DNA of 14,323 bases from Syntrophomonadaceae bacterium (GTDB lineage: Bacteria; Bacillota_D; Dethiobacteria; DTU022). The position numbers were made by a program, and so were the translations under genes. The notes under the pieces are model-generated. The model did not search any database. It saw only the letters and a list, made by a program, of their open reading frames with translations, and was not told the DNA's origin. The DNA lies in contig PUNU01000167.1 in NCBI GenBank assembly GCA_003551865.1, positions 1 to 14,323 of the forward strand, in the 5' to 3' direction. Position 1 is the first letter of the stretch. The number at the start of each line of letters is the position of its first letter. This document shows positions 673-10,010 of the stretch, piece by piece.

Positions 673-2382
673 TTACATTTCTTCCGGGGCGTTAATACCC
701 AGCAGGCCAAGCCCGTTGGCCAGGACCTGCCGGGTGGCATCAATCAGCAGCAGGCGCCCGAGCTTTAGGTTGCCCTCACTGTTTAACACCGGGCAGTTGT
801 GGTAAAAACGATTAAACTCGCGGGCCACTTCGATCAGGTAACGGGCCAGGATTGACGGCTTGTAGTTCTCAGCCGAAGCAAGTATTTTGTCGGGCAGTAA
901 AGCCAGGTACTTTACCAGGGAGATCTCTTCTTCTTCTCCCAGTGCGGAAACCGCCTCTTCGTTCCATTTCAATAAATGCGGCCCGGATTTGCGTAAAATA
1001 CTGCAGATGCGGGCATGGGCGTATTGGATGTAGGCGGCAGTTTCACCGGAAAAGTCGAGCACTTTCTCCCAGTCAAACTCAATATTTTTTACCCGGTCGT
1101 TGCTTAAATCGCCGAAGCGCACCGCTCCCAGTCCGACAGCCCGGGCGGCGTTTTCCTTGTCTTCCAGGTCCGGGTTTTTCTCTTCGATGATTTCCCTGGC
1201 CATTTCGATTGACCGCTGTAAAACTTCTTCCAAAAGAATGATCTTGCCCGCCCTGGTGGACATACGCCCTTCTTTGAATCGAATCAACCCGAAGGGAACA
1301 TGGACACAGTTTTTTGCCCAGTCAAAGCCCAGCAGTTCAAGCACTTTAAAGAGCTGTTGAAAATGCAGGGTTTGTTCCGCACCTACAACATAAAGTGACA
1401 GGGCAAATTGAAATTTTTCGTAACGGTAAATAGCGGCGGCAAGATCTCGGGTTATATACAGGGTGGCCCCGTCTTTTTTACGCAGCATCACCGGGGGCAA
1501 ATTGTATTCCTCCAGGTCGACGATCAAAGCGCCCTCGCTCTCCGTGGCAATCCCCTTATCCTCTACCAGCTTGATTACATCTTCAAGCATTTCATTGTAA
1601 TGGCTTTCGCCGTGGTAGTATTCGAATTCAATGCCGAGCAGTTCATATATCTGGGCGTAATTTTCAAGACTCAGTTTGCGGAAATGGTTCCAGTAAGAAA
1701 CGGCTTCCTCTTCGCCCTCTTCCAGCTTCCTGAACCAGAAGCGAGCATCGTCATCCAGGGAGGGGTCCTTTTCAACCTCCCGGTGAAATAGAACATAAAG
1801 CTCATAAAGGTAATTGACCGGATCGGCCTTGAGGAGGCTTTCGTCCCCCCAGCGCTTGTAGGCAACTATCAGTTTGCCGAACTGGGTGCCCCAGTCTCCC
1901 AGGTGGTTGATCCCGATGCTGTTATACCCCAGGGCCTCATAAATCAAATAAAGGGAATGCCCGATAACCGTAGAACGAATGTGCCCCACCCCGAAAGGCT
2001 TGGCAATATTGGGGGAAGAATAATCAATGGTTACGTTGTGGCCTTTACCCAGATCGGCATGGCCATATTTTGCGCCCTTTTCGCCGATCTCCTGCAGAAC
2101 TTCACGGCTGTAAGTCCGGGGGTTGATGAAAAAATTGAGATAGGGGCCCCGGGGAACCGCCTTTTCCCAAAAGTACCCTTTCTGGCGGGACAGTTGTTCG
2201 GCCAGCTGTTCGGCGATAGCCGCCGGAGATTGTCTCATCTCTTTGGCCAGGGTGTAGCAGGGAAAAGCGAGGTCTCCATAGTCGGGCTCGGGGGGAACTT
2301 CCAAAAGGTTAATCGCTTCGGCCGTTTCAAGTGGAACAAGCGGTTCCAGGGCCAGGCCAATTTCTTCTTTAAGCTTATGCAT
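673..2382 (-). CDS. argS: Arginyl-tRNA synthetase
   Basis: Class I aminoacyl-tRNA synthetase charging tRNA-Arg; 569 residues, the usual bacterial length. Visible in order: N-terminal Add-1 tRNA-binding domain (residues ~1-110, EPDYGDLAFPCYTLAKEM); the HIGH region SSPNIAKPFGVGHIRSTVIG (122-141); the family block GINHLGDWGTQFGKLI (157-172); the KMSKS equivalent GRMSTRAG (372-379); and the C-terminal anticodon-binding helical domain (~440-569) ending GLGLLGINAPEEM, typical of ArgRS. The first His of HIGH is Gly (GVGH, residues 131-134; codon GGG), an oddity treated separately. The start ATG at 2382 has AAGGAG about 12 bases upstream, slightly long but the best choice. It lies 111 bp downstream of the propeller/GerMN gene on the same strand, with no clear terminator between. 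Confidence 0.98.
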   Translation of the reverse strand: MHKLKEEIGLALEPLVPLETAEAINLLEVPPEPDYGDLAFPCYTLAKEMRQSPAAIAEQLAEQLSRQKGYFWEKAVPRGPYLNFFINPRTYSREVLQEIGEKGAKYGHADLGKGHNVTIDYSSPNIAKPFGVGHIRSTVIGHSLYLIYEALGYNSIGINHLGDWGTQFGKLIVAYKRWGDESLLKADPVNYLYELYVLFHREVEKDPSLDDDARFWFRKLEEGEEEAVSYWNHFRKLSLENYAQIYELLGIEFEYYHGESHYNEMLEDVIKLVEDKGIATESEGALIVDLEEYNLPPVMLRKKDGATLYITRDLAAAIYRYEKFQFALSLYVVGAEQTLHFQQLFKVLELLGFDWAKNCVHVPFGLIRFKEGRMSTRAGKIILLEEVLQRSIEMAREIIEEKNPDLEDKENAARAVGLGAVRFGDLSNDRVKNIEFDWEKVLDFSGETAAYIQYAHARICSILRKSGPHLLKWNEEAVSALGEEEEISLVKYLALLPDKILASAENYKPSILARYLIEVAREFNRFYHNCPVLNSEGNLKLGRLLLIDATRQVLANGLGLLGINAPEEM

Positions 2383-2493: not shown

Positions 2494-4536
2494 CTACTGC
2501 TCCGGGTTAATGAAAAATGGCCGGCGGTAGAATCGGCTAAAGGAGGGATACCCGGCAGGCGGGGTCCACCTTTCTCCTTCAATCAGTATTTCCACCCGCT
2601 GGGTGGCACTGTTCTCAAAAACGGTCAGAAACAGGGCGTCGAGCAGTAATGCAGCCTGAAGTGTTTCATGCTCTTCGGCCTGTTCGGGGAAAACTGCCCT
2701 GGCCGTGCCGTCCAGATCAACCTGTACAAGTTCGGGCGTTTCTTTAAGATCAACCAGGCTCAGGGTCGACGGCACAAATGGCAGGTTGCGGCACCGGCGT
2801 ATTACATGCTCGAGGATCTCTTTTAATTCCTGATGCTGATCATTTTCCGCGAGATCGTCAATCGAAAGGTAGTAGCGGTTTCCGCTCATAACCGGGACAT
2901 ATGCCGGGTTTTCCCGGCGGTGAGGTTCAACCGGCTGTTCCAGGGCCGGGCCTTCACCCAATGCTTCAATTGGCTCCCCTTCGGAGAGGAGATGTATTTC
3001 TTTGACTTCGCTAAATGAGCTGACTGTATAAAGCAGGGACTTAAACGCTTTTTCGCTTTGAGTTGGACCGCTCATCTCGACCAGCTCGGGAGAAAGATCG
3101 AGTTCCAGGCATCCCTCTTCCAATGAAAAATCAATATCGATAAATATTTCTTTGTCGGGGATGGTGCGGTAAAGGGCACTGCCCCGGGCCGGCCCGCGGA
3201 CAAGCTCTTCCAGGGCGGCTCGCAGGGGGTTGTCCGTGGAGCTAATCGACCTGGATACCGGAACCAGGTTGTTGTTTTCGTCAACAAAATAAAGAGGGAT
3301 CCATATTTCGTCGGCCCTTGTGGTGGTAGTGACGGGACTGTAGAGAGGCGTTTTTTGAATATCGTTGTCGTTTTCAGCAAGCAGGGGCTTGAGGTTTACC
3401 AGGTCGATATAGCCGTCCCGTCCGCCAAGCAGGACCAGGTGCGGGTGGCCGGATACCGTCAACCGCTCCACCTGCATGGCCACTTCCCAGCTGTTAACCT
3501 CGGTGCCTTCCCGGTCAATCAGGCTCATGCGGGTGTAGTCTTCCCGATAGTGCCGCCAGGAGCTGGTAACAATGTTTTGGCCGTCGGGAGTAAAGGCAAA
3601 TAGTGATCCGTCCGCAATGCGCTTGCTCCAGAGCAAATCTTCGGTCAGGTCAAAATAGTAAAGGTTTTCTTCGGAACCTTCCCTGCTGCCGTAAACCAGC
3701 AGGCGATTGTAATTCTGCGGGTTAAACTTGACGTTTTTGACCTCGAACGGCAGGCTCGTTTCCCACAGGGATTCCCCCTGCAGATTGTAAACTACCAGCC
3801 GGTCGCCGCCCAGGGCGGCCATACGGCTGCCGTGCTTGGAAACCGCGGCCAGCGATTGGCCTTCATGGGTCCACAGCTTCTCGCCGTCGATATCAACCGC
3901 CGCTATCGAGGGTTGTTCCTCTTCCCGGTAAGTATAGAAAATGTTGGCCTGCTCCAGGTACTCGCTGGAGAGGTGAATCTTCTCTATCGGCGGACTCTCG
4001 ATGCTCCATTTTTTTTCACCATCCTGGTTAAACAGCTCGAGGTAGTGCGTATCTTCTTCAGATTCCGCCCGGGAAACAGCAACCCATGAAGCGTTGGGTG
4101 ATACCGCAATATCCCTGACCGAAAACCCTTGATCATCCCACCAGAACTGCTGGTCAGTAGACATGTAAAGCAGCCTGCCGCCCTCTGTTCCAATGACAAC
4201 GTAATTGCCGCAGGAAGAAATTTTGGCCTGCCTGGGAGCAGTGGAAAATGTTTTATCCCACCTTAGTTTACGATCACTGTCCAGAAGGTTGACCTTGTTA
4301 TTTTCGGCGCTCATAAGAATACCGGTCAGGCTATGGTCTACATCCAGGTCATAGATCGTGCTGCCGGTAAACCAGAGATCGTAAAGAGAGCCGCCTTCAT
4401 CCTGAACCTGGGGTTCAACTATTACTTCGGTCGATTCAGATCTCGGCCACAGGTGCATGGAAAACAGGACCAGGCCGGCCAGGACAAACAACAGGGCCAG
4501 GCCCACCAAGTAGAAGTAAGGTTGAAACCGCTTCAT
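2494..4536 (-). CDS. Membrane-anchored PQQ-like beta-propeller protein with two GerMN domains (LpqB-like)
   Basis: 680 residues. A single hydrophobic segment at residues ~8-28 with no lipobox Cys suggests a signal anchor with the rest outside the membrane. Residues ~50-385 contain repeated strands ending in D-x-x-G-x-x-x-W-like motifs (LLDSDRKLRWDK, LFNQDGEKKW, AVDIDGEKLW, VYNLQGESLW, YFDLTEDLLW; Trp near 93, 177, 222, 258, 303, 350), the signature of a PQQ/WD-type propeller of about six or seven blades. Residues ~412-527 match GerMN: LYFVDENNNLVPVSRSI, NPLRAALEELVRGPARGS, TIP, a VDLS-like LELDLSPELVE, and VKEIHLLSEGEPIE. Residues ~555-655 look like a second, more degenerate GerMN (LQAALLLDALFLTVFENS, RVEILIEGER). 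It sits 97 bp downstream of the histidine kinase on the same strand; actinobacterial LpqB, encoded after mtrAB, combines the same domains in the opposite order. Likely an extracytoplasmic partner of the kinase (inference). The ribosome site is weak (GGGGGTG). Confidence 0.8.
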   Translation of the reverse strand: MKRFQPYFYLVGLALLFVLAGLVLFSMHLWPRSESTEVIVEPQVQDEGGSLYDLWFTGSTIYDLDVDHSLTGILMSAENNKVNLLDSDRKLRWDKTFSTAPRQAKISSCGNYVVIGTEGGRLLYMSTDQQFWWDDQGFSVRDIAVSPNASWVAVSRAESEEDTHYLELFNQDGEKKWSIESPPIEKIHLSSEYLEQANIFYTYREEEQPSIAAVDIDGEKLWTHEGQSLAAVSKHGSRMAALGGDRLVVYNLQGESLWETSLPFEVKNVKFNPQNYNRLLVYGSREGSEENLYYFDLTEDLLWSKRIADGSLFAFTPDGQNIVTSSWRHYREDYTRMSLIDREGTEVNSWEVAMQVERLTVSGHPHLVLLGGRDGYIDLVNLKPLLAENDNDIQKTPLYSPVTTTTRADEIWIPLYFVDENNNLVPVSRSISSTDNPLRAALEELVRGPARGSALYRTIPDKEIFIDIDFSLEEGCLELDLSPELVEMSGPTQSEKAFKSLLYTVSSFSEVKEIHLLSEGEPIEALGEGPALEQPVEPHRRENPAYVPVMSGNRYYLSIDDLAENDQHQELKEILEHVIRRCRNLPFVPSTLSLVDLKETPELVQVDLDGTARAVFPEQAEEHETLQAALLLDALFLTVFENSATQRVEILIEGERWTPPAGYPSFSRFYRRPFFINPEQ

Positions 4537-4633
4537 TAAGAAACACCCCCGGATAAAATACCCGATTAATCACCATTCTACTATAAAGACAAGTCAATTC
4601 GTTAATTATCTGTTTCCGCCTGATTAAGAATTG

Positions 4634-6049
4634 TTAAATTTGTTCTTCAGAATAGGGCAGGGCAAAATAGAAACTGCTGCCCGCCCCTTCTTTGCTTTCC
4701 ACCCAGACCCTGCCTCCGTGCTGGGCGACAATTTCACTGACGATGGCCAGGCCGAGGCCGGTTCCACCGCCCTCCCGGGTGCGGGCCCGGTCAACCCGGA
4801 AAAAACGCTCAAAAATATAGCTTAAATCCTCTTCAGGAATACCGCAACCTGTATCGGCAACCCTGGTAACGGCCTCATTTTCTTCCCTATAAAGAGAAAC
4901 GCTAACTGCTCCTCCGGGAGGAGTATAGTTCAAGGCGTTGTCCAGCAGGTTGCCCACAACCTGGCGAAGCTGCATCGGCACTGCCATTACTTTGTATTCC
5001 CGTTCCGGCAGTTCACAGTGCAGCTCCAGGCCGGCCCGGGCAAAGCGATACTGGTTCTCCTCAACCATGCTGCGGATCAGGCGGTTTAGCACCACCTCTT
5101 CCCGCTCGACATCTTCTTTTTCCAGCCTGGACAGTTCCAGCAGGTCGTTGACCATGGCAATCAACCGATCGAGCTCGCTGTCCAGGTCTTCGACAAACTC
5201 TTTTTGCTGTTCCGGCTCCATTTCATGTTCTTTTAAAGATTTTGTCAAAAGACTCATTGTCGTGAGCGGCGTCCGCACCTCATGGGCAACATCGGCGGCA
5301 AATTTTTTCAGGTTGCTGGTATAGTAATTCAAGCGCTTGGTCATTAAGTTGAACTGATCCGCCAGCCGGCCAATCTCATCACTCGATGAAACTTCGATAT
5401 GCTGATCAAGTTTGCCCTCGGCCATTTTTCTTGCCGCCGCAGTAAGCTCTTCAACCGGCCCGGTAATACGGCGGGCCAAAAGAACCGAGCCGCCGCCGAC
5501 CACGGCTACGGCCAGGAGGGTGGCCAGCAAGAGAAAGGAGCGAATATCACCCAGGGTATTGTAGACATCTTCCATCGAAGCCGACAAAAAAATGGCTCCG
5601 ATTACCGAGTCGTCTTCTTCGACCGGTATGGCCACCTGGAGGACATTTTGTTCCAATCGTTCGCTGTAGCCTACACTGCTGCTGACTTCTCCCTCCAGGG
5701 CGTCATAAACATTTTCCTGTTCCAGGGCTTGATTGAGCAGGCCTCCAACGCGCATCGAATCGCCGACCACGACACCCTGCTGATCGGTAAATATAACCCG
5801 GGCACCGGCCTGACGGCTCATGTTTTCTGCCAGGGTGCTCAGGCGTACTGAGTTGACCTGCCCGCGTAGATGGCCGACCAGAAAATCGGAGGCCAAAAAT
5901 CCGGTGCGTTTTAAGCTCTCGCGCAAATTATTGATGTGGTAGTGCTCCAGCGTGGTATAGAGAAAAAAACTGATAATTATCATTACCGCAAGAATAATGG
6001 CCAGAAATGTCGCTGCCAGGCGAAAGCGAAGGCTGTAAATGCCCGACAT
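4634..6049 (-). CDS. Membrane sensor histidine kinase, PhoR/WalK/MtrB type
   Basis: 471 residues. TM1 ~11-31; extracytoplasmic sensor ~32-170 (Cache/PhoR-like, with ARVIFTDQQGVVVGDS at 83-98 and VLQVAIPVEEDDSVIGAIFL at 136-155); TM2 ~171-191; HAMP ~192-245; HisKA with phospho-acceptor His256 in FAADVAHEVRTPL; ATPase domain with N box (NLLDNALNYTPPGG, Asn371), G1 (DTGCGIP, 399-405), F box (FERFFRVDRART) and G2 (GGGTGLGLAI, 427-436). All catalytic motifs are intact, so kinase activity is expected. The start ATG overlaps the regulator stop by one base (TAATG), with GAGG at a good distance, implying translational coupling. It presumably phosphorylates the regulator encoded just upstream. Membrane topology is inferred from hydrophobicity. 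The signal is unknown, but the ddl and LpqB-like neighbours point to the cell envelope. Confidence 0.95.
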   Translation of the reverse strand: MSGIYSLRFRLAATFLAIILAVMIIISFFLYTTLEHYHINNLRESLKRTGFLASDFLVGHLRGQVNSVRLSTLAENMSRQAGARVIFTDQQGVVVGDSMRVGGLLNQALEQENVYDALEGEVSSSVGYSERLEQNVLQVAIPVEEDDSVIGAIFLSASMEDVYNTLGDIRSFLLLATLLAVAVVGGGSVLLARRITGPVEELTAAARKMAEGKLDQHIEVSSSDEIGRLADQFNLMTKRLNYYTSNLKKFAADVAHEVRTPLTTMSLLTKSLKEHEMEPEQQKEFVEDLDSELDRLIAMVNDLLELSRLEKEDVEREEVVLNRLIRSMVEENQYRFARAGLELHCELPEREYKVMAVPMQLRQVVGNLLDNALNYTPPGGAVSVSLYREENEAVTRVADTGCGIPEEDLSYIFERFFRVDRARTREGGGTGLGLAIVSEIVAQHGGRVWVESKEGAGSSFYFALPYSEEQI

Positions 6050-6741
6050 TAAGCGACCTCCCTAATTTTGTAGCCGGTACCCCAAACGGTTACGATAATT
6101 TCAGGGTTGGCAGGATCTTTTTCAATTTTTTCCCTGAGATGCCTGATATGGACATCAACCGTGCGCACATCACCATAGTAATCATAACCCCACACCTGTT
6201 CCAGAAGCTGCTCCCGGGAATAAACGTTTCCGGCATTGGCGGCAAGGAAGCTTAGCAGGGAAAATTCCTTGGAAGTAAGGTTGATCTCCCTGCCTTCCAC
6301 CCGGACCCGATGCTGCAGCAGGTCGATTTCCAGCTTGCCAATCTGAATTTGTTTCTTTGATTCTTCCTCCCATGCCGTGCTGCGCCTCAGGATAGCCTTG
6401 ATCCGGGCTACCAGCTCCCGGGAATTAAAAGGCTTGGTCAGGTAGTCGTCGGCACCCAGCTCGAGACCGAGGACTTTGTCTATGTCTTCACTGCGGGCGG
6501 TAAGCATTATAATGGGCAGCTCCATTTTTTTGCGAATCTGCCGGCAAACTTCAAAACCGTCCACTTCAGGCAGCATCAAATCGAGAACCACTATGTCGGG
6601 CTTTAATTCAAAAACTTTTTCCAGTGCTTCCCGCCCGTCATAGGCCGGTTCCACCCTAAATCCTTCTCTTTCCAGGTTGAAGGTGAGAGCCTTGACCAGC
6701 GTTTTTTCATCATCCACCAATAAAACCAGTTCATTGCTCAT
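6049..6741 (-). CDS. OmpR/PhoB-family response regulator
   Basis: 230 residues. Receiver domain 1-120 with acidic pair Asp10-Asp11, phospho-acceptor Asp54 (DIVVLDLMLPEVDG), Thr81 and Lys103 (LTKPF). Winged-helix DNA-binding domain ~135-228 (LTSKEFSLLSFLAANAG, VWGYDYYGDVRTVDVHIRHL, VWGTGYKI). I place the start at the ATG at 6741-6739 rather than a TTG at 6750. GGAGG (6756-6752) lies 10 bases before the ATG but would nearly touch the TTG, and the ATG overlaps the upstream glycosylase stop by one base (TAATG). Its own stop overlaps the kinase start the same way. It is a transcription factor controlled by the adjacent kinase; the best analogues are PhoP/WalR/MtrA. Target genes cannot be read from this window. 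Confidence 0.95.
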   Translation of the reverse strand: MSNELVLLVDDEKTLVKALTFNLEREGFRVEPAYDGREALEKVFELKPDIVVLDLMLPEVDGFEVCRQIRKKMELPIIMLTARSEDIDKVLGLELGADDYLTKPFNSRELVARIKAILRRSTAWEEESKKQIQIGKLEIDLLQHRVRVEGREINLTSKEFSLLSFLAANAGNVYSREQLLEQVWGYDYYGDVRTVDVHIRHLREKIEKDPANPEIIVTVWGTGYKIREVA

Positions 6742-7526
6742 TAACCGCAACCTCCGTCATCATGATAGTATTTGACAATTTCTATAAAATCTTCCCATAC
6801 ATCTCTTTTCTTTCCCGGATCGCGCAGTAAAGCCGCCGGATGAAAAGTAGCCATAAACCGGCGCCCCCCGATTTCATGCCACCGGCCTCTACTCCGCGTG
6901 ATCGAGGCATTCTTATCGATCAGCGTGCGCATAGACAGCGCCCCCAGGCATACAACAATTTGTGGATTGATTAGTTCTATTTGCTTCTCTAGATGAGGCA
7001 GGCAGTGGTCGATCTCGGATTGAAAGGGTAAGCGGTTACCCGGGGGGCGGCATTTAATTACGTTGGCAATGTAGACCTCTTTGCGTTCAATTTTAACGGC
7101 TGACAGGATGCGGTCAAGCAGCCGGCCGGCCCGGCCGACAAAAGGGATTCCGATCCTGTCTTCATCGGCTCCCGGACCTTCGCCGATCAGCATCAGGCGG
7201 GCCCGGGGATTCCCGTCCCCGAAAACGACCTGCCGGCAGCCGTTCCTTAAAATACAGAGCTTGCAGGAAAGGCAGTTCTTTTTCAGCTCTTCAAGCTGCT
7301 GCTCCGGATCTTTTTCCTGCGCTTCCTGCCGGGGAACGGAACTGCCTTTACTCATATAGTCAAACAGCGACTGCTGTTGCTCTGTAATCGACCTCACCCC
7401 TCCTGGCGTAAGCGCCACCCAACCTGCCACTTTCCAGCTTCGCCATTTAAGCAATTCAACATAGTAAGCCGATTTTCCTTCAGCCGCTGCGTGCCAATTA
7501 CCGGGGCTGCTTACATTCAGAAGCAC
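6741..7526 (-). CDS. Family 4 uracil-DNA glycosylase (4Fe-4S), start uncertain
   Basis: Removes uracil from DNA in base-excision repair. Visible: Fe-S cysteines Cys85, Cys88, Cys159 and Cys175 (CxxC, then KCRPPGNR and HC 16 residues apart, the family spacing); motif GEGPGADEDRIGIPFVGRAG (115-134); NVIKCRPPGNR (155-165); and C-terminal FHPAALLR (228-235). The open frame is 261 residues from a GTG at 7526, against about 190-210 for the family; conserved sequence starts near residue 77. The GTG at 7526 lacks a ribosome site. A strong GGAGG (7403-7399) lies in frame within the extension, right after a TGGCG-CTTA-CGCCA hairpin (7404-7417), but the GTG at 7397 is only one base from it and the first ATG is at 7355. 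The true start may therefore be inside the first ~58 codons. It follows ddl by 15 bp and couples into the response regulator. Confidence 0.93.
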   Translation of the reverse strand: MLLNVSSPGNWHAAAEGKSAYYVELLKWRSWKVAGWVALTPGGVRSITEQQQSLFDYMSKGSSVPRQEAQEKDPEQQLEELKKNCLSCKLCILRNGCRQVVFGDGNPRARLMLIGEGPGADEDRIGIPFVGRAGRLLDRILSAVKIERKEVYIANVIKCRPPGNRLPFQSEIDHCLPHLEKQIELINPQIVVCLGALSMRTLIDKNASITRSRGRWHEIGGRRFMATFHPAALLRDPGKKRDVWEDFIEIVKYYHDDGGCG

Positions 7527-8781: not shown

Positions 8782-8810
8782 TAAAAAAGCTAATGGAGGG
8801 CACTGCTCAT

Positions 8811-10010
8811 ATGCAAACACCGGCGGTTATACTGGGTGCAAATTTCTATACAGCCCTGGGGGCGATTCGGACTTTGGGCCGCAGAGGTGTCCCCGTTTAT
8901 GCCCTGGATTATTTTTTTCCCAAAGCTTATGCGCTGGCTTCCCGCTACGTCACGCAAAAAGTGCTCTGCCCAGATATTAACCGGGAAGAAATGGCCCTGG
9001 CCGATTTTCTTATACAGTTCGGAGAAGATTTTTCCGATCGCCCGGTGCTGATAGCATCGACCGACAGCTATGCCCTGCTTATATCCCGCCATGCCGAAAA
9101 GCTGGACCGCTATTACCGCTTCCCGGAAAACCCGCCCGGGCTGCTTGAGAACATCGTCGACAAAAAAGGGCTGGCCCAGCTTGCTCAAAAGCATAATCTG
9201 CGGGTGCCGCAAACGATAATCGTCGATTCGGACAGCAAACTTGACACTGCGGCCGGAAAAATGTCTTATCCCTGTATTATCAAGCCCGCCCTATCCCATC
9301 AATTCGTGAAGGTTTTCCGCCAGAAATGCCTTCTGGCCAAAGACCGGGATGAGCTGTTGACAGCCCTGGAAGAAGCCCGCTCAAGTGAGCTGGAAGTCAT
9401 GGTCCAGGAGATAATCCCCGGTTTTGACGACCAGATGTTTGTTTTCGATGTTTACGTAGACAAAAAAGGGGATGCCACCCACACTTTTAGCGCTCAAAAA
9501 CTGCGCCAGTTTCCAATCAATTTTGGATCATCCACATTAACCCATCATTATTATGATCCCGAACTAGTTGAGCTGGGTCTCGATTACATCAAGCGCCTGG
9601 GTTACAGGGGCTACGGTGAAATTGAATTTAAAAAGGATCCCCGGACAAATCATTACCACCTGATTGAAATCAACGCCCGCCTGAGCACACTAAACGTGCT
9701 CTTCGACAAATGCGGGCTGGAATTTACCTATGCAATGTACCGCGACTTGATTGGCGATCCTCTCCCTTCCATGCACATCCGGAAAGAACAAGCGTGGGCT
9801 TTCTGGCATGCCTATGAAGACCTTTTCAGCGTCCGCGCCTACCTGAAAAAGAAGCAGCTTACATGCAAGCAGATACTGCTGCCCTGGATTGCCCACCACA
9901 AGGCCCACGCTATATGGGCTGCCGACGATATCAAGCCGCTGTTTTCCTTTGCCCGCCTGCTCCTTGGTAAAGCCGCAAACAAACTGCTGCGCATGGTGCG
10001 TCACAATTAA
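8811..10010 (+). CDS. ATP-grasp carboxylate-amine ligase, COG3919/D-aspartate-ligase type
   Basis: 399 residues; the only plus-strand gene. I chose the ATG at 8811: GGAGGG (8795-8800) is 10 bases before it, whereas the frame's earlier ATG (8793) overlaps that site. The N-terminal pre-ATP-grasp domain (1-110) has LGANFYTALGAIRTLGRRGV and a STDSYALLISRH segment. The ATP-grasp core has MSYPCIIKPALSHQF (151-165, nucleotide Lys158), VQEIIPGFDDQMF (198-210) and metal ligands in GYGEIEFKKD (267-276; Glu270, Glu272) and LIEINARL (284-291; Glu286, Asn288). A ~100-residue tail ends in a basic helix. It resembles the ATP-grasp group that includes enterococcal D-aspartate ligase, which activates a carboxylate and joins an amine. 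Substrates cannot be read from sequence. Divergence from ddl hints at a wall or amino-acid ligation role, but this is inference. It is followed at once by a hairpin. Confidence 0.85.
   Translation: MQTPAVILGANFYTALGAIRTLGRRGVPVYALDYFFPKAYALASRYVTQKVLCPDINREEMALADFLIQFGEDFSDRPVLIASTDSYALLISRHAEKLDRYYRFPENPPGLLENIVDKKGLAQLAQKHNLRVPQTIIVDSDSKLDTAAGKMSYPCIIKPALSHQFVKVFRQKCLLAKDRDELLTALEEARSSELEVMVQEIIPGFDDQMFVFDVYVDKKGDATHTFSAQKLRQFPINFGSSTLTHHYYDPELVELGLDYIKRLGYRGYGEIEFKKDPRTNHYHLIEINARLSTLNVLFDKCGLEFTYAMYRDLIGDPLPSMHIRKEQAWAFWHAYEDLFSVRAYLKKKQLTCKQILLPWIAHHKAHAIWAADDIKPLFSFARLLLGKAANKLLRMVRHN

Follow-up and report, generated by a model that had tools for sequence, protein, structure and literature searches.

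The window, a 14,323-nucleotide stretch of a Syntrophomonadaceae bacterium (contig PUNU01000167.1), contains three adjoining genes on the minus strand that encode a response regulator (RR), a sensor histidine kinase (HK), and a 680-aa membrane-anchored protein with a propeller followed by two GerMN domains (PROP). Together, RR-HK-PROP is probably a three-component envelope signalling system of the WalK family, with feedback on PROP, that has been kept across one class of Bacillota. This class appears to be Dethiobacteria, judging by the names on some of the homologues. The gene order, the domains, the membrane anchor, the conserved PROP promoter, and the presence of a separate WalRK-YycHI locus in relatives can be read from the sequences. 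The first-pass annotation had described the genes as a counterpart of the actinobacterial MtrAB-LpqB system. This is right as a likeness of design, while the comparisons stop short of showing kinship. Among the papers listed on GerMN/LpqB, two-component systems, WalK with YycH/YycI, and Dethiobacter alkaliphilus kinases, no account of RR-HK-PROP was found, and the three-gene unit is apparently unstudied so far. Dethiobacter alkaliphilus, one of the named carriers, is a cultured species.

RR (6049..6741) is an OmpR/PhoB-family regulator with Response_reg and Trans_reg_C domains, and its top NCBIfam model is YycF. HK (4634..6049, 471 aa) was identified as a WalK-like sensor kinase by domain models and a PDB fold match. 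It consists of a transmembrane segment (TM1), a Cache-like sensor, a second transmembrane segment (TM2), HAMP, HisKA, and HATPase_c. The putative extracytoplasmic sensor (residues ~31-167, 5549..5959) scored near the cut-off for sCache_like/Cache_WalK, and its predicted structure has a pLDDT of 81-92 per ten residues. The domain scan of the window HK found no PAS between HAMP and HisKA. PROP (2494..4536) possesses a signal anchor (residues 6-29, 4450..4521), a beta-propeller (residues 61-385, 3382..4356), GerMN1 (residues 410-527, 2956..3309), GerMN2 (residues 544-655, 2572..2907), and a C-terminal INPE motif (residues 676-679, 2500..2511). The domain scan reported GerMN2 as a second Germane stretch and gave no position for it. 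The first-pass annotation had placed the regulator, a two-TM HAMP kinase, and the 680-residue propeller/GerMN protein in this order on one strand, with the propeller ahead of two GerMN domains, and both descriptions are confirmed.

A total of 77 PROP loci were examined, 37 closer to the window and 40 more distant. The gene immediately before PROP is HK in 72 of these. In the other five, which have no HK on the contig (L018, L019, L020, L022, and L030), the contig begins inside PROP. The homologues are found beside two-component genes, as the first-pass annotation had expected. RR is present in 68 of the 72 HK-PROP loci and was not seen in four, and ArgS follows PROP on the same strand in 61. 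In two loci, a further GerM-like protein with two Germane stretches lies between PROP and ArgS (L090:8062-9042 and L102:4955-6001).

A protein search returned 122 PROP homologues, and 117 among the 120 matches listed are 663-701 aa in length. The PROP profile matches 90 of 97 genomes in the class of one relative. The match includes part of the propeller in 79 of them (E <= 3.4e-33) and has an E-value of 4e-15 or weaker in 11, for nine of which, among the matches listed, it is a GerMN match. The names on the homologues include Dethiobacteria bacterium and Dethiobacter alkaliphilus. Contig titles are mostly Syntrophomonadaceae or Bacillota, with one Desulfovibrio and one Desulfonatronospira that are perhaps binning labels. 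In a survey of 398 genomes of the phylum, with two candidates scored per genome, full-length or long propeller-spanning matches were found in at least 14 genomes, all 14 within the class. Nearly all other phylum matches listed are to GerMN alone. Outside the class, a propeller lipoprotein of G342 (L278:4735-7044) matches PROP residues 93-382, and no two-component system was found adjoining it. Among viral contigs, 12 pattern matches included no relative.

The domains of PROP are supported by several matches. The GerMN model PF10646 matches with an E-value of 8.9e-21, and PDB 6gzb (GerM) matches residues 404-527 with an E-value of 1.2e-7. GerMN is present at residues 412-527, where the first-pass annotation had put it. 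A propeller of ~320 residues precedes the GerMN pair. Gmad1 (PF10647), the propeller family of LpqB, had no match in PROP at E <= 10 and none in six class genomes, with Corynebacterium glutamicum matched as a positive control. No Pfam match to YycH or YycI was found in PROP. No chain named LpqB is among the Foldseek and VIA matches listed, which excludes nothing. At the C-terminus, N677, P678, and E679 are invariant in the 39 PROPs of one alignment (A1). In another (A2), N677 is invariant and E679 nearly so. INPE is possibly a docking tail.

In the window clade, PROP has a signal anchor where distant relatives have a lipobox-like Cys after a hydrophobic segment. This Cys was recognized by pattern in 16 of 23 distant rows and by eye in the other seven, and its column is at least 90% conserved in alignment A4. 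The earlier suggestion that a signal anchor replaces the lipobox thus holds for the window clade and not for the distant relatives. Because a putative lipoprotein form, as in LpqB, exists within the PROP family, the anchor does not set the family apart. The domain order does, and the LpqB order used in this comparison is general background.

The WalK and WalR models give the kinase and the regulator their best scores, all below the curated cut-offs. The top PDB fold match of the HK structure model is 9a5d, an integrative WalK-YycH model (E 1.5e-36). HK scored 346 bits against the WalK model (NF033092, cut-off 725), with the kinase core as the best stretch, and 221.8 bits against the MtrB model (NF040691, cut-off 450), which aligns along nearly the whole of HK (residues 6-468). 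RR scored 306 bits against YycF (NF040534, cut-off 340) and 272.4 bits against MtrA (NF040689, cut-off 300). The WalK proteins of relatives also score under 725 (L136, 549 bits; L138, 564 bits), with alignments that run nearly end to end, and the WalR of L136 is below its cut-off as well at 330 bits.

Relatives possess a WalRK locus of their own. In L136, the one locus in which its families were scanned, an RR and a 608-aa kinase (Cache_WalK, HAMP, PAS) are followed by YycH (E 2e-19), YycI (E 3.5e-16), a 429-aa MurA-looking protein whose family was not scanned, and an HtrA-type protease. L139-L142 resemble this locus in the sizes of the genes and the starts of the proteins, as does L138 from the kinase on. 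YycH matches occur in 79 of the 97 class genomes, 63 of them over the cut-off. Since related genomes carry a separate WalRK-YycHI, RR-HK-PROP is not their WalRK, and the WalRK analogy of the first-pass annotation does not extend to identity. In a tree of 56 regulators, which included 24 of the 79 system RR rows and one MtrA sequence, the system RRs form one clade (24 rows, 99/97) and the WalRs another (100/100). MtrA, on a long branch, and RegX3 have no resolved placement. In L077 and L100, the PROP-adjoining HK resembles WalK in having PAS between HAMP and HisKA. The kinases of L079 and L081 are as long as these two PAS-bearing ones. Descent of HK from a WalK-like kinase, followed by loss of PAS, would fit. 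L011 was left out of the HK alignment on account of a stop in the chosen range.

There are seven loci without PROP in which RR-HK is followed directly by ArgS (L143, L145, L146, L149, L150, L151, and L152). L143, L146, and L152 fall within PROP-bearing groups of the RR tree, so about three losses of PROP are likely. In the PROP-less kinase of L152 (L152:1330-2454, 374 aa), which comes from one draft genome, TM1 is joined directly to TM2, with HAMP and the kinase core after it, and a Cache domain was not found. The other six PROP-less kinases keep the sensor. At equal kinase distance, PROP-less sensors are more diverged in six of the seven bins with at least seven pairs, although the pairs are not independent. 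For example, at a kinase distance of 0.3-0.4, the sensor distance is 0.68 between PROP-less and PROP-bearing kinases against 0.46 among PROP-bearing ones. The trend is reversed in the 0.5-0.6 bin (seven pairs). In L105, PROP (L105:6043-7242) ends after the propeller and lacks both GerMN domains, and it still lies after HK. It is followed by a terminator-like stretch, recognized by eye, and then by ArgS.

Residual distances give a hint of a link between PROP and the sensor. Across 50 loci, the HK sensor correlates with the propeller at 0.39, with GerMN2 at 0.40, and with GerMN1 at 0.11, while its values with RR, the upstream uracil-DNA glycosylase (UDG), and the ArgS halves range from -0.19 to 0.11. 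The same values are 0.48, 0.37, and 0.08 in the core set (22 loci; other genes, -0.14 to 0.30) and 0.57, 0.31, and 0.11 in the distant set (28 loci; other genes, -0.15 to 0.21). L105 was left out of these distance tests.

By sequence, PROP has a conserved promoter of its own, with TTAA repeats that keep helical phase. In the HK-PROP gap, TTAA recurs at spacings of 10-11 or 20-22 bases. The sites bound by OmpR/PhoB-family regulators are tandem half-sites separated by one or two turns of the helix. In the window, three TTAA half-sites (4602..4637, minus strand) lie at 4637-4634, 4627-4624, and 4605-4602, 10 and 22 bases apart. The first overlaps the HK stop codon, and the spacing is kept in homologous loci. 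Within 100 bases after the HK stop, in-phase pairs occur in 18 of 32 core and 17 of 40 distant loci, compared with means of 3.4 and 3.3 in dinucleotide shuffles (maxima of 9 and 8 in 300). Out-of-phase pairs occur there in 9 core and 2 distant loci (shuffled, 4.7 and 4.2). When the count begins 20 bases inside HK, in-phase pairs are found in 29/32 core and 23/40 distant loci and out-of-phase pairs in 9/32 and 4/40. The pooled TTAA spacings peak at 10-11 (59 pairs) and 20-22 bases (44 pairs).

In this longer count, in-phase pairs occur at 0 to 4 loci per set at other gene ends. In the 100-base count, there are none in 32 core and two in 34 distant loci after the PROP stop, none before Ddl (0/24) or UDG (0/25), and two after core ArgS (2/29). 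Out-of-phase pairs occur at 7 of 27 core UDG ends. An in-phase pair is present in one of nine PROP-less loci, two of which are cut before the next gene; L144, L147, and L148 are cut in this manner. A -10-like hexamer, TA[TCA]AAT, is present after HK in 31 of 32 core loci, and a -10-like hexamer is likewise present between PROP and ArgS in 29 of 32. The putative -10 of the window, TAGAAT (4575..4580, minus strand), was chosen by eye, has no good -35 hexamer at the usual spacing, and departs from the pattern of the core relatives. CTCTGG is present in 17 of 30 core HK-PROP gaps.

A search of 12 genomes for triple TTAA sites yielded 76, with 0-19 per genome, and a site lies just before PROP in G007, G076, and G078. 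The count was higher than a reversed-pattern control in G003, G005, G007, G019, G076, and G078, equal to it in G001 (0) and G093 (19), and below it in G006, G030, G053, and G089. Sites were found before a GerMN lipoprotein and before LysM + Hydrolase_2 wall hydrolases (G076 and G078). Further sites precede LysM-G5-M23 peptidase, LysM-CAP, LytR-CpsA-Psr, and PstS-like proteins. Many of the 55 sites inspected (19 + 36) lie beside metabolic genes or inside genes. The 20 downstream genes that were scanned were picked partly as exported-looking, so the share of wall genes is not unbiased.

The promoters of the LysM hydrolase were tested afterwards with the same phases, in the best 30 of the 53 genomes with a match, among 96 genomes. 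In-phase pairs occur in 23 of these 30 loci (shuffled mean, 5.0; maximum, 10 in 200) and out-of-phase pairs in three. Two of the 30 genomes, G076 and G078, are those that had suggested the hydrolase. A c-di-AMP riboswitch (RF00379) precedes the LysM + Hydrolase_2 hydrolase in two of three loci tested (L264:1341-1465 and L272:1342-1463), and several other hydrolase leaders resemble the riboswitch-bearing ones by eye.

A probable mechanism can be proposed from these features. PROP would lie outside the membrane, where its propeller, perhaps together with GerMN2, probably touches the Cache sensor of HK and tunes the kinase. The TTAA array would be bound by a regulator of the OmpR family, in the simplest case the cognate RR, and this would adjust the supply of PROP and close a feedback loop. 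The LysM wall hydrolase would be controlled together with PROP through the same array. PROP may inhibit the kinase as negative feedback, a guess by analogy with LpqB in Mycobacterium smegmatis and WalH/WalI in Bacillus subtilis. The earlier proposal that the accessory protein regulates the kinase is plausible, given the conserved RR-HK-PROP order and the domains. More tentatively, RR-HK-PROP may be an independent LpqB-like third component in Bacillota, in which a paralogue of WalK gained an envelope-sensing propeller-GerMN protein that contacts the Cache sensor through the propeller and is under feedback from its own RR, in parallel to the WalRK-YycHI of that cell. Once PROP is lost, the kinase would then be free to drift and even to drop its sensor.

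Several observations weigh against a regulatory role of PROP or against control by its own RR. PROP is missing while RR-HK-ArgS persists in the seven loci above, which indicates that the kinase can be kept without it, and six of these kinases keep the sensor. The loss of the sensor (L152) and the propeller-only PROP (L105) come from one draft genome each. Some control correlations are as high as that between sensor and propeller, namely propeller-ArgSb in all loci (0.37), propeller-ArgSa (0.38) and HKkin-ArgSb (0.42) in the core set, and propeller-HKkin in the distant set (0.67). The smallest Mantel p is likewise found for many control pairs. The sensor-propeller correlation is thus a hint and not proof. 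The TTAA phase test was framed after the same sequences had been read, which makes it post hoc for the HK-PROP gaps, and related loci are not independent samples. A stricter pattern, TT[AT]A[CT][AT] repeated after N4-5, was found in 1 of 33 core and 3 of 40 distant loci (shuffled means, 0.48 and 0.21). Since the phases were chosen post hoc and the stricter pattern has no signal, the hydrolase promoters are the better check. Finally, TTAACA reversed is TGTTAA, which fits what is presumably the WalR half-site, so WalR may read the array. The available part of PMC5405149 does not give this half-site.

If the proposed reading is wrong, the likeliest reason is that the system acts on PROP as a target and is not regulated by it. 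PROP would then be an envelope or sporulation protein that is co-located with RR-HK because RR controls it. GerMN domains do occur in GerM, RR-HK survives without PROP, and the promoter that PROP has to itself bears a regulator-type array like those of a GerMN gene and LysM-hydrolase genes. This explanation is nevertheless rather unlikely, because HK is immediately followed by PROP in each of the 72 loci where this is visible, the single sensor-less kinase is a PROP-less one, and the evolutionary rates of sensor and propeller are correlated, which is a weak hint. A separate question concerns the reader of the array. It is possible, if somewhat doubtful, that WalR or PhoP reads it and wires PROP to another wall regulon in place of its own RR. 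WalR typically controls wall hydrolases, and one array site precedes the PstS-like gene, in addition to the reversed half-site. Against PhoP, no orthologue was found in five of ten genomes, drafts whose completeness was not established, and the PROP promoters of these five (L008, L029, L002, G076, and G078) keep the array.

Two further explanations concern the origin of the genes. An inherited MtrAB-LpqB module with a reshuffled accessory protein would account for the shared gene order, for a protein with GerMN and a propeller that has, in distant relatives, a lipobox-like Cys, and for the MtrB alignment along nearly all of HK. It is quite improbable, since the MtrA and MtrB scores (272 and 222 bits) miss their cut-offs and lie below those of WalR and WalK, Gmad1 has no match in the window protein or the six class genomes, RegX3 scores higher than MtrA (231 against 219 bits), and the one MtrA sequence has no resolved place in the RR tree. 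Kinship with MtrAB-LpqB is not supported for these reasons. That RR-HK-PROP is itself the WalRK of the organism, with PROP in place of YycH and YycI, is the most improbable explanation. The best scores of HK and RR are to WalK and WalR, and the HK of L077 and L100 has a WalK-like PAS. Against this, relatives have a separate WalRK, as in L136, where YycH and YycI come after a different RR-HK and HtrA lies one gene further along, YycH is widespread in the class, and the two sets of RRs are separate clades.

If RR-HK-PROP is a three-component system as proposed, the pairing of a kinase with a propeller-GerMN protein would have come up in a second phylum, here with a WalK-type kinase, which would point to a repeatable design. 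The natural losses of PROP, the propeller-only variant, and the sensor-less kinase provide material for reading the interface. The TTAA array at PROP and the LysM hydrolase offers a regulon hypothesis that is testable.

The neighbouring genes in the window are those usual for the system. A family-4 UDG (6741..7526, minus strand) is the usual gene before RR, and it was not found there in L023, L031, L037, L088, and L106. ArgS (673..2382, minus strand) is usual after PROP or, where PROP is lost, directly after HK. The window also contains an ATP-grasp protein (8793-10010, plus strand) divergent from Ddl, which is found in many relatives and was not found in others.

RR-HK-PROP can be compared with several known systems. 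PhoPR-Pst likewise has an OmpR-type RR and a membrane kinase, and PhoP recognizes boxes made of TTAACA-type repeats. L137 has a separate RR-HK before pst/phoU-looking genes, named from protein starts. BamB/PQQ-type and WD40 propellers are similar in fold, which shows no shared function; BamB is an outer-membrane assembly factor. The sporulation protein GerM has GerMN in common with PROP. GerM itself lacks a propeller and is not known to be linked to a kinase. A GerM assignment calls for a GerMN pair without another large domain, whereas in PROP the propeller precedes the pair.

WalRK-YycH-YycI of Bacillota has the same WalK-type Cache/HAMP kinase and membrane-anchored extracytoplasmic partners. 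It differs in having its own locus and RR clade in related genomes, in the PAS that the window HK lacks, and in having YycH and YycI after the kinase, where RR-HK-PROP has PROP without a match to either. WalH and WalI are negative regulators in B. subtilis (PMC7299342), YycH and YycI activate WalK in Staphylococcus aureus (PMC7355866), and deletion of the WalK sCache in B. subtilis leads to constitutive signalling (PMC7299342).

MtrAB-LpqB of Actinomycetota has the same order of RR, HK, and extracytoplasmic protein, and its accessory protein has GerMN and a propeller. In RR-HK-PROP, RR and HK are closer to the WalR and WalK models. The propeller comes before two GerMN domains and has no Gmad1 match; this differs from LpqB as generally described. 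The first-pass annotation left open a reshuffled ancient module or the same design arising twice. The second fits better, and neither is proven. LpqB of M. smegmatis is a precedent for an accessory protein of a kinase system, and the same source also covers coelicolor (PMC5845573). In Streptomyces venezuelae, MtrA binds the mtrAB-lpqB promoter and is suggested to activate it (PMC13189361).

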